64,000 bases of DNA, from positions 1,735,812-1,799,811 of the forward strand of contig NZ_AP031322.1 of NCBI RefSeq assembly GCF_041154675.1. Reading direction: 5' to 3'. Source of the DNA: Sulfurisphaera javensis. Its GTDB lineage: Archaea > Thermoproteota > Thermoprotei_A > Sulfolobales > Sulfolobaceae. Shown here in pieces: positions 52,125 to 59,453 of this stretch (the first letter of the stretch is position 1; the number at the start of each line of letters is the position of its first letter). The position numbers and the translations under genes were made by a program. The notes below the pieces were generated by a model, which did not search any database, was not told the DNA's origin, and saw only the letters and a list, made by a program, of their open reading frames with translations.

Positions 52125-53438
52125 TTATCCACTTTTTATTTTTCTTAAAACTTCTTCAGCTACTTCTAAATGCTTTATGATATCTTCCTTATTGTGCTGT
52201 GTTGATATAGTCCATTCCTCATCGTAGTCAGCCATTGGGATAATTCCTTTTGAAAGCATAAGCCAAAAGTACTTATACCAAATCCTTTTATCAATTCTTA
52301 AGAACTCTCTGTAATTCCTCGGAAGATAATTAGAGAAGAAAATAGTACCGCTAGCTCCCCAAGTTACAGCTGTTATATCAATGTCTAAATCCTCAACTAA
52401 ATCCTTATATCCCTTACTTAGCAATGAGTTAAGTTTATAAACTTCATAAAAACTATCTTGAGTTAATATTTGAGTTAACGTAACTATTGATGCTACAACT
52501 GATAATGGATTAGCATTAAATGTTCCACCATGAGCAGTCTTTTCTGGACCAATAACACTCATAATCTCTTTTCTCCCAGCAATTACTGATAATGGTAAAC
52601 CTCCAGCTATAGCTTTACCTAATGTAATTAAATCAGGTTTTAATCCGTAATATCCTGAGGCACCAGAATAATATTTTCCTCCAGTTTTAACTTCATCAAA
52701 TATTATAAGTATTCCGTATTCTTTAGCTAAATTGAAAATTCCTTTTAGAAATGACACATCTGGCTCTATTATACCCATGTTCATTGCTACTGGTTCCATT
52801 ATAATCGCAGCAATATCATTTCCATCTTTTCTGACTATCCTTTCCACAGAATCATAATTATTCCATTCTGCTACTAAAGTATATTTTACAATATCTTCTG
52901 GTATTCCATGAGAGCATACAGACTTTTCTCCTTCTTTATCTGGGCTAACATTTACTAATAATTGGTCATGTGATCCGTGATAATGACCTTCAAATTTTAT
53001 TATTTTCTTTCGTTTTGTATAAGCCCTAGCAATCCTTATTGCGTGCATTGTTGCCTCAGTACCAGTAGAAGAAAACCTAACCATATCAACGTTGTACCTA
53101 ATCTTTATAATTTTAGCAAGTTTAATTGTATCTGCAAATTCAAATCCAAGAATTGAACTATTTTCAAACCTTTCTTTTAAAGCCTTTACCAATTTTGGAT
53201 GAGAGTGACCAATTCCTAAAGCTCCATAAGCCATGTTAAAGTCAATATAAACGTTTCCATCTACATCCCATACTTTACTACCTTTACCTTTAACTAAGTA
53301 TAATGGGTATGGTGGTAAGTATCTATAGTTGCTGGAAACTCCATAAGGCATCATTCTGGAAGCAATTCCGTAAAGAGAAAGAGATTTAGGTGTCTTTTTG
53401 ACGTATTCTGATAGCATAATTCTCACACTCTTTTTCAA
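52125..53438 (-). CDS. Class III aminotransferase, glutamate-1-semialdehyde-aminomutase-like (left copy)
   Basis: 437 residues from a TTG at 53438; an ATG at 53417 matches the [13 protein letters not shown]-type start of its paralog at 58110 as well. Landmarks: [32 protein letters not shown], the PLP site [47 protein letters not shown] and Schiff-base Lys in [12 protein letters not shown]. It is not the tetrapyrrole enzyme itself by context, but an amine or omega-amino acid transaminase of that group. It forms with the permease at 53581 the left arm of an inverted duplication. 132 bp of the gene are almost identical to the right copy. Confidence 0.85.
52962..53093 (-). repeat. 132-bp near-identical tract, left copy (gene conversion)
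   Basis: Read on the minus strand it equals 58455-58586 on the plus strand at 131 of 132 positions; the one difference is AAAACG against AAAGCG. It encodes the PLP-binding core from [18 protein letters not shown] to GHYHGSHDQ. Sequence on both sides differs at many positions, third codon positions included. Confidence 0.85.
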
Positions 53439-53510
53439 TCTGAACTAAAACTTTTTCCTCAGAACGTTTTCGCTTTCGAGATCTCAACACCTCACCCTAA
53501 AAAATCGTAA
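53439..53510 (-). promoter_or_regulatory. Possible structured 5' leader of the left aminotransferase gene
   Basis: On the minus strand TTTATATT near 53511-53520 is the TATA box. The transcript would start near GGGTGAGGTG (about 53494) and run 55-75 nt before the start codon, unusual where most genes are leaderless. The segment 53459-53496 has about 50 percent G+C against roughly a third around it and contains the palindrome GAGATCTC and GAAAGC. A raised G+C block is the usual hint of structured RNA in such genomes. No known riboswitch was recognised. Confidence 0.3.
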
Positions 53511-53580
53511 TATAAATCAATTTATATACTTTTTCGCCGAAGAGATTATACAATTTCCAATTAAAGAAAAAAGAAATATC

Positions 53581-56269: not shown

Positions 56270-57820
56270 ATGGTAGAAAAGTCAGTTTTTATTAGACAAT
56301 CTTCTGGTTTAGTGAGAGAAGTTAGTCCTTGGGCTTCCTTCTTTGCAACATTTGGTTTGGTTACTGGAGGAGTGCCAATGCTAATTTTATCATGGCTTTA
56401 CTTATCTCCGGGAGCTAATTGGACATTGTCTTTCTTAATTACTTTGATACCAACATTAGGCATGGGATTTTTATTTTATTTAGCATCTATTTACTCTCCT
56501 AGGAGTGGAGGAGATTATGTGTTTTTAAGTAGAGTTTCAAATCCTATTTTGGGTTTTGTAAATTATTGGGGATTGTTTATTGCATTTGCATTATCTTTGG
56601 GACTTTATAGTTATTTAGGTGCACAATGGTTCGCATACCTTTTTACCGGAATAGGACTTTACTTAAATAATTCTTATTTAGTTAATTTCGGTAGTTTCTT
56701 TACTACAACGACTGGAAGTGTTATTGTAGGTTTAATAGTATTACTTGCTATTACTTTAGTTTCTTTAACAGGTAAGCATGGATGGAAGTTTATTTTTATT
56801 TCTGGAATAATTTCCATTATTTCAACTATAATTACCTTCGTTACTTTAGCAACGATAAATCAAGCTCAGTTCTCTTCATCTCTTTCATCTTTTACTGGAG
56901 TGCAAAGTGCTAATAATGAAGTCATTACAGCTGCAGAAAGTAATGGTTTGTCTTTTCTTTCTCCTTTTTATGGAGCATTATATGCAATTCCAATAGTCTG
57001 GTATTATTATGTTTGGTATAATCTTCCAGCTTCGTGGTCCGGAGAGATGAAAAAAGTTAAACTTAACGCCTTAGTATCTATAGTAGTTGCTATTTTAACC
57101 ATTGGTATTTATTATATTCTATTTGTAAACCTAAACTTTCATGCCTTTGGTGAAAAATTTCTCACATCTTGGTCTTACATTTATTCAAATGGAATAACTA
57201 ACAGTACAGTATTTAATGATTTAAGTAATATAGGCACTTTTTCACCTTTCTTCGCTTTATTAGTTACTCACAGTTTACCTTTATATATTATAATGTGGAT
57301 TGCTTTTTGGTTACCTAATTTTTACAGTTTAGCCCCATTAGAAATTGCTCTAACTAGGTACTTGTTTGCTTGGTCATTTGATAGGATCATGCCAGAAAGA
57401 TTTGCTGATGTTAACGAAAAATTCCATATTCCTACAAAGGCAACTCTATTAACTTTCGGATTAGGAGTTATTGGAGTACTACTTTACGCTTATGTCACTG
57501 AAATTTCTATTGTAGATGTGACAATTGTCTTTGAGATAGGCTATGCTATATTTGCTTTAGCTTCGGGTATCTCGATATTGAAGAAAAGGATATTTAACAA
57601 ATGGATAAGTTTAGTGAGTTTTTCCGTTTTTGGATTCCTACTTTACGCATTATTCATAACATGGGGAAATCCAGTTCTTTTGCCAATAAACTTACCGACA
57701 ATTCTTTCTTTATTGGTTATTTACGGGAGTGGTATAGGGATATATCTAGTCTCATATCTTACAAATAAGAAAAAGGGAATAATCTTAGATTTGATATTCA
57801 CTGATATTCCACCAGAATGA
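56270..57820 (+). CDS. APC-superfamily permease with RQSSGLVRE / DIPPE end tags (right arm)
   Basis: 516 residues, about 12 helices. N-terminus VFIRQSSGLVREVSPWASFF (residues about 6-25), C-terminus KKGIILDLIFTDIPPE; both tags carry one conservative change (E to Q, E to D) against the other four. Close paralog of the permease at 53581 over the full length. Start is 59 bp after the ureohydrolase stop, same strand, so they are probably cotranscribed. It lies upstream of the right aminotransferase. Confidence 0.82.
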   Translation: MVEKSVFIRQSSGLVREVSPWASFFATFGLVTGGVPMLILSWLYLSPGANWTLSFLITLIPTLGMGFLFYLASIYSPRSGGDYVFLSRVSNPILGFVNYWGLFIAFALSLGLYSYLGAQWFAYLFTGIGLYLNNSYLVNFGSFFTTTTGSVIVGLIVLLAITLVSLTGKHGWKFIFISGIISIISTIITFVTLATINQAQFSSSLSSFTGVQSANNEVITAAESNGLSFLSPFYGALYAIPIVWYYYVWYNLPASWSGEMKKVKLNALVSIVVAILTIGIYYILFVNLNFHAFGEKFLTSWSYIYSNGITNSTVFNDLSNIGTFSPFFALLVTHSLPLYIIMWIAFWLPNFYSLAPLEIALTRYLFAWSFDRIMPERFADVNEKFHIPTKATLLTFGLGVIGVLLYAYVTEISIVDVTIVFEIGYAIFALASGISILKKRIFNKWISLVSFSVFGFLLYALFITWGNPVLLPINLPTILSLLVIYGSGIGIYLVSYLTNKKKGIILDLIFTDIPPE

Positions 57821-58109
57821 CTAGGTTATTCAAGTTTTATTACTATTTTTAATAATTTCAACTAATTATAAAATAAAGAATTAAATGAAAATGCGTACAC
57901 GTAATTACGAAGTCGCGGTATTTATGAGACACGAGGCATTGCATTATATTCACAACATTATCCCGTTACTTATGAATAATAAAATACATAAGAATTTTTT
58001 ACTATTATTACAACTGGCATTCTAGCTCTGAACCACTTAAAAACCTTGTAATCTTTCCAATCCCTACCTATAAAAAATTTATATACAATACAAAGAGAAA
58101 ATACCATAG

Positions 58110-59453
58110 GTGGTCGAATTGGTAACAGATATTTTATCGGAGTATGTTAGTAAAACTCAAAAGTCAAAAATAATTTTTGAAGAAGCAATAAAATATCTTC
58201 CTCTAGGTGTTTCGAGTAATTATAGGTTCTTTGATCCTTATCCCATTTATTTGGTTAAAGGAAACGGAGGTAGAGTTTGGGATGTTGATGGAAATGAATA
58301 TATAGACTTTATTTTAGGATTTGGAGCTTTAGAAGTAGGTCATGCAAATCCTAAAATAATAAATGAAGTAACAAAAGCACTGCAAGATAGTTCTATTTTA
58401 GGCTTTGAATATTATAAGACTGTGGAATTAGCTAAAATAATCTCAAAGCGATATAACGTTGATATGGTTAGGTTTTCTTCTACTGGTACTGAGGCAACAA
58501 TGCACGCAATAAGGATTGCTAGGGCTTATACAAAGCGAAAGAAAATAATAAAATTTGAAGGTCATTATCACGGATCACATGACCAACTCTTAATTAATAT
58601 AAACCCTATGGTCCAAAAGGATAGAGTTCCTTCTTCTTTAGGAATACCAGAGGAAACATTATCAAACACTTTAGTTGCTGAGTGGAATAATTTAGAGTCT
58701 GTTGAAAAACTTGTGAAGTCTCAGTCCAATGATATTTGTTGTGTTATTATGGAACCAGTAGCAATGAATATGGGATTGATTCCACCAGAGAAGGACTTCC
58801 TTAAAGGAATATTTGATCTATCTAAAGAATACAATTTTTTGGTTATCTTTGATGAAGTTAAGACTGGAGGAAAGATGTATTCTGGCGCTTTAGGTTATTA
58901 TAATGTAAAACCAGACATAATACTCATGGCAAAGTCAATTGCTGGCGGTTTTCCTTTATCAGTAATAGCTGGCAAAAGGGAAATCATGGAGTTAATAGGT
59001 CCAAATAAGGTTGCTCATGGAGGAACTTTTAATGCTAACCCAATCTCAGTCATAGCATCTTATGTTACCTTAACTCAAATCCTTACTGAAAATGCCTTTT
59101 ATTATATGGAAACTTTGAGTGATAGGTTAGAAAGAGGATATAGAGATATTGCTGATGATCTAGACGTTGACTTAAAAGTAACTAGATGGGGTCCTAGCGG
59201 TATGATTTACTTTAGTAAGGAAGTACCAAGAAATTACAAAGAGTTATTAAAGACTGATATTCCAAGATGGTTCACTTACTTCTATTCAATGCTAAATAGT
59301 GGAATTTTACCAATGGCTGGATTTAATGAACAATGGACAGTTTCTGTAATGCATACAAAAGAGGAGATTCAAAAACACATAGAGAAAGCTTACGATGCTG
59401 TGAAAAAAGCAAAAGAAGAAAGACTTAACCTTAAGCTATTTGAAGCTTTTTAA
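58110..59453 (+). CDS. Class III aminotransferase, glutamate-1-semialdehyde-aminomutase-like (right copy)
   Basis: 447 residues from a GTG at 58110; TTTATATAC lies 26 bp before, which fits a leaderless start there. Same landmarks as the left copy: [68 protein letters not shown] and Lys in [12 protein letters not shown]. The two proteins align end to end with scattered differences save for the identical core. The 290-bp gap before it holds no gene. It overlaps the convergent aminotransferase by 4 bp. Confidence 0.85.
58455..58586 (+). repeat. 132-bp near-identical tract, right copy (gene conversion)
   Basis: Partner of 52962-53093 in inverted orientation, 131/132 identical. The two copies are 5.4 kb apart with the ureohydrolase and two permease genes between them. 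Confidence 0.85.

Follow-up and report, generated by a model that had tools for sequence, protein, structure and literature searches.

Two inverted aminotransferase genes in Sulfurisphaera javensis

Why should two aminotransferase genes that differ freely along most of their length be almost the same over 132 bases? The question is raised by genes A and B of Sulfurisphaera javensis, which lie as inverted copies with unique genes in between. The window, by which we mean the whole stretch of 64,000 nucleotides that was analyzed, carries permease p2 followed by A on the minus strand, and the agmatinase, permease p3 and B on the plus strand (Table 1). The true start of A may be an ATG at about position 53417.

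Table 1. Positions of the aminotransferase genes, their neighbors and the segments discussed in the text, numbered along the window.
Feature	Position	Strand	Description
Aminotransferase A	52125..53438	minus	437 aa, class III, GSAM-like
Putative conversion tract in A	52962..53093	minus	132 nt, residues 116-159; spans the phosphate-binding SSTGTEA motif and the YHG motif
Residues of A matching 68-69 of B	53232..53237	minus	Asn-Met
APC-type amino acid permease p2	53581..55176	minus	same strand as A, upstream of A
Agmatinase / ureohydrolase	55299..56210	plus	TIGR01230 above cut-off
APC-type amino acid permease p3	56270..57820	plus	same strand as B, upstream of B
Aminotransferase B	58110..59453	plus	447 aa, class III, GSAM-like
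Residues 68-69 of B	58311..58316	plus	Ile-Leu
Putative conversion tract in B	58455..58586	plus	132 nt; sole mismatch to A at 58535

Both proteins belong to the class III aminotransferases (PF00202), with scores of 220.6 and 223.4 bits against a gathering score of 30.5. The closest solved structures are those of glutamate-1-semialdehyde aminomutase (GSAM; 3bs8, E 5e-88). With hemL/GSAM the two proteins share a three-domain layout, the catalytic lysine and a gating loop region; K275 and D248, the catalytic residues of B, align with those of GSAM, and both are kept in A. They differ from hemL/GSAM in scoring below the hemL cut-off (TIGR00713, 527.3; A 377.8 and B 394.6 bits), which the true hemL, located elsewhere in the S. 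javensis genome, passes with 567.9 bits. The GntE cut-off of 525 (NF041362) is likewise missed by A (344.3 bits) and B (338.7 bits). Across the Sulfolobaceae, where the aminotransferase gene occurs it lies close to an APC-type permease and an agmatinase, and from this arrangement we infer that A and B would each transaminate a substrate imported by their own permease.

Four APC-type permeases of the window (50576-52123, 53581-55176, 56270-57820 and 32629-34233) have an N-terminal SSGLVRE and a C-terminal IPPE motif in common. Several of them adjoin catabolic genes, so that the window looks like a region of amino-acid uptake and breakdown. The plus-strand gene p1 and A meet tail to tail at 52123-52125, with one base separating their stop codons. 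Elsewhere, the window holds a further inverted paralogous pair (31785-32439 and 40085-40778, 66% identical in DNA) and a predicted surface or secreted protein of 682 aa (3367-5415) containing tandem copies of a unit of about 70 aa (4495-4790 against 4705-5000, 72% identical in DNA).

Silent sites are depleted of differences within the tract

A sequence-only reading of the locus had proposed recent gene conversion between the inverted copies, pointing to 131 identical bases out of 132 and to a lack of silent differences. The count holds: 52962-53093 (minus) and 58455-58586 (plus) differ at a single base (53013/58535), a silent AAA/AAG change in a lysine codon. In the codon alignment of A and B the tract comprises 44 codons, all 44 encoding the same residue in both proteins, while outside it 219 of 393 amino acids are identical and there are 436 base differences. 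Of the codons for the same residue, 1/42 differ silently in the tract, compared with 104/208 in the rest of the alignment (Fisher p=4.9e-10); a count restricted to third bases gave 99/208 outside. Equal silent divergence inside and outside the tract, the outcome that the earlier reading had named as speaking against conversion, is therefore not what we observe. When informative codons were scanned for stretches containing no more than one silent difference, the longest was 42 codons, a length that none of 20,000 shuffles reached (maximum 32).

As a control we used the adjoining permease pair p2/p3, which has diverged to a similar degree (59% amino acid identity) and in which we found no conversion and no excess; its longest run was 6, attained in 17,213 of 20,000 shuffles. 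Nor did pairs of A or B with orthologues from other species show a silent dip over the same columns (p 0.31-1). In a tree built from the tract alone, A and B did not resolve as a clade, and that clade was not rejected (p 0.33). The local silent drop, absent from the orthologue pairs, strongly supports a recent exchange of this 132-base stretch of the catalytic core between A and B, by copying in either direction.

Collapse of the two copies during assembly was rejected, since the flanks of the tract are unique and the assemblies of S. javensis, Sulfolobus sp. A20 and Saccharolobus caldissimus are hybrid or long-read. That of S. javensis KD-1 combines 2 x 150 short reads with Nanopore reads at 482x (PMC11636327), and a repeat of 132 bases is shorter than the read length, which makes collapse unlikely. 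Unequal crossing-over was excluded by the inverted orientation of the copies and the unique genes between them.

Hardly any part of the protein is better conserved than the tract, which ranks tenth among all 44-column windows and lies two columns off the top one. Selection on the DNA or RNA (an overlapping element, a codon or structure constraint), or extreme conservation of the protein, might then produce the match in the absence of any exchange. The silent dip, however, exists within genomes only. Among orthologues whose 44 residues all match, 21-22 of the 42 silent sites in the tract columns differ; for B against the S. caldissimus genes the figure is 22/42. The lack of a dip in orthologue pairs shows that it is not the DNA as such that is conserved in the tract, and with half of the silent sites differing, DNA-level conservation is ruled out. 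Selection without exchange is accordingly the least probable of the explanations considered.

Cores are homogenized independently in other Sulfolobaceae

The Sulfolobaceae compared include Sulfolobus sp. A20 (G007, PMC5127849), Saccharolobus caldissimus HS-3 (G030, PMC9022530) and Stygiolobus sp. KN-1 (PMC8483694). The gene was found in 8 of 31 genomes of the family, and both aminotransferase genes are absent from the three other Sulfurisphaera genomes. A scan of GTDB returned mostly distant homologues (about 34-41% identical), the only one in Sulfolobales being on a UBA167 contig, in single copy and 59% identical.

The gene is present twice in A20 and three times in S. caldissimus, and each set includes inverted members. 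The A20 pair contains exact runs of 106, 266, 47 and 307 nt with divergent islands between them, and the S. caldissimus trio has exact runs of up to 562 nt, with 943-nt and 740-nt blocks that are 99.0% and 97.7% identical, respectively. The homogenized sequence is private to each genome, and between species the region differs at many silent sites. Sister strains had been suggested as a check on whether the tract is shared or independently homogenized; in A20 and S. caldissimus homogenization is independent, and stronger than in S. javensis. Three genomes have thus been homogenized independently after an older duplication, the pattern of recurrent concerted evolution.

Gene order around the loci is conserved between A20 and S. 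caldissimus: neighbors are 57-88% identical, and the B and C loci are set among the same ones. This synteny implies that B and C predate the split of the two lineages and are old loci with renewed cores. Metallophosphoesterase-like genes also lie beside the permease, agmatinase and B in A20 (G007 1652512-1653450 and 1656297-1657322) and in S. caldissimus (G030 2225920-2226864 and 2229674-2230669); the p3-B interval of S. javensis contains no such gene.

The ends of the genes retain an older identity

Trees of the converted and unconverted segments conflict for A20 and S. caldissimus. In the C-terminal tree, A of the window groups with S. caldissimus 2209 (support 97/98), the partner of A20 1667 is S. 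caldissimus 2211 (100/100), and within-genome clades are rejected (AU p 0.0007-0.005). In the core tree the copies of A20 and of S. caldissimus cluster by genome (98-100), and it is the class clades that are rejected (p 0.0001-0.02). Taken alone, the N-terminal tree has little resolution, and with both ends combined the B class is supported at no more than 91/96. From these trees, the ends of the genes, and above all the C-terminal domain, retain the older paralogue identity. Class markers of the N- and C-terminal ends are linked in 7/7 genes, which leaves no sign of crossover and rules out an inversion through crossover inside the tract.

The near identity of the cores within A20 and within S. 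caldissimus would also be expected if one aminotransferase gene had been duplicated recently in each genome, its ends then having diverged fast or been replaced. Recent duplication, however, predicts that the end sequences cluster by genome, and they cluster by class across genera; the syntenic B and C loci predate the split of A20 and S. caldissimus, and the silent sites of the C-terminal part have diverged. The end trees and the synteny together rule out this reading, which we consider highly improbable, if marginally less so than selection without exchange.

We therefore favor gene conversion, and assign a probability of roughly 93% to the explanation as a whole. The 132-base match would reflect a recent, nonreciprocal short-patch conversion, with no crossover, in which the partners were two old aminotransferase paralogues in inverted orientation. 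The S. javensis tract would be the latest event of a recurrent process that homogenizes the central PLP-binding part genome by genome, under which the N-terminal stretch and the C-terminal domain retain their paralogue identity. By analogy with the genetics of S. acidocaldarius, where conversion is short-patch, discontinuous and nonreciprocal (PMC4471258), the exchange may proceed by RadA-dependent strand invasion followed by localized strand removal and resynthesis. Sulfolobus recombination acts on 30 bp or less (PMC3139894). Confinement to the core would arise because sufficient DNA identity is left only there, perhaps aided by selection that removes conversions of the substrate-determining ends.

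Residues 68-69 persist within the homogenized core

In A20 the homogenized core is interrupted at about B residues 68-74, ~163-186 (the match to the GSAM gating loop) and ~202-226. That of S. caldissimus has a single interruption 5' of the class-specific 3' part, near B residues 67-78. Across B residues 44-357 (314 columns), only positions 68-69 separate the B class (Ile-Leu) from the A and C classes (Asn-Met). These two residues sit 2-3 positions ahead of F71, whose counterpart in the GSAM alignment is a tryptophan that we take to be Trp68 of Arabidopsis GSAM; Trp68 contacts the catalytic lysine (PMC4909244). In the Arabidopsis enzyme the gating loop spans residues 151-184 and the border between the PLP and C-terminal domains lies at 328/329 (PMC4909244). 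The 3' end of the A20 tract, at B residue 329, falls near this border.

These positions bear on a possible addition to the conversion explanation, which does not compete with it. In this adaptive scenario, conversion of the PLP domain is favored as a means of spreading good core variants to every paralogue, whereas any conversion extending into residues 68-69 or the C-terminal domain is purged for spoiling substrate specificity. The scenario draws on the uneven distribution of class-separating columns (2/314 in the core against 18/121 in the ends, p=4e-9), on the proximity of residues 68-69 to F71 and on the A20 tract border. The same split between core and ends is, however, predicted by a neutral process in which ends too diverged to recombine are left alone; the pair's retention is observed in just two independent genomes, and the S. 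javensis tract alters no residue beyond those that unconverted species already share. The alignments of these two genomes suggest selection against converting specificity residues, and we regard adaptive homogenization as possible, though with odds below even. Somewhat more tentative is the broader proposal that the two or three aminotransferases of a genome share one continually homogenized PLP-binding core, and that selection protects two pocket residues together with the C-terminal domain as the part that sets specificity. If true, gene conversion would be a way of running one catalytic core beneath several substrate-recognition shells. One guess specific enough to be tested is that residues 68-69 are a specificity determinant.

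The sequence-only reading had further proposed that conversion keeps the catalytic centers alike while substrate-binding parts diverge, an idea that is only partly supported. The S. javensis tract does not show it: unconverted orthologues have the same residues, so selection alone suffices to keep them alike and conversion is not needed for that. The tract probably lies where it does because homology survived there, in a stretch where it would persist longest while the two genes diverge, and homology alone can explain its position. In A20 and S. caldissimus the pattern does match, in that homogenization extends to much less conserved segments of the PLP domain and the ends and residues 68-69 remain paralogue-specific.

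Comparison with known systems

Sulfolobaceae conversion of a patchy kind has been described from laboratory crosses, and the aminotransferase set records from nature how long the tracts are and which residues resist conversion. It also calls for caution, as trees or substrate predictions based on the core would make old paralogues look like recent duplicates; it is the C-terminal domain that separates them. The short, discontinuous, nonreciprocal tracts of S. acidocaldarius resemble both the 132-nt tract and the broken tracts of A20, but they involve introduced or mated DNA rather than chromosomal paralogues (PMC4471258).

As in the catalogue of Wang and Chen, paralogues within a genome are closer than orthologues, recurrently in several species and at silent as well as non-silent sites (PMC6053082). 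The seven archaeal cases listed there all come from methanogens, and neither "aminotransferase" nor "Sulfolob-" occurs in the main text (PMC6053082). Among the literature searched, the present set appears to be the first example in which metabolic paralogues of Sulfolobaceae have undergone recurrent conversion limited to a domain.

An archaeal precedent for recurrent, domain-limited conversion is mtrA-1/mtrA-2 of methanogens, where, as here, ancient paralogues have a shared catalytic domain that is repeatedly homogenized and another domain that stays paralogue-specific (PMC4632066). In mtrA, fusion supplied the distinct part, a transmembrane domain, and the genes are tandem duplicates in one operon of Euryarchaeota (PMC4632066). 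The aminotransferase genes, by contrast, are inverted and kilobases apart, belong to Sulfolobaceae, and preserve a class-specific residue pair within the homogenized core. They are a further case of domain-limited recurrent conversion, in another archaeal lineage and between inverted, dispersed copies.
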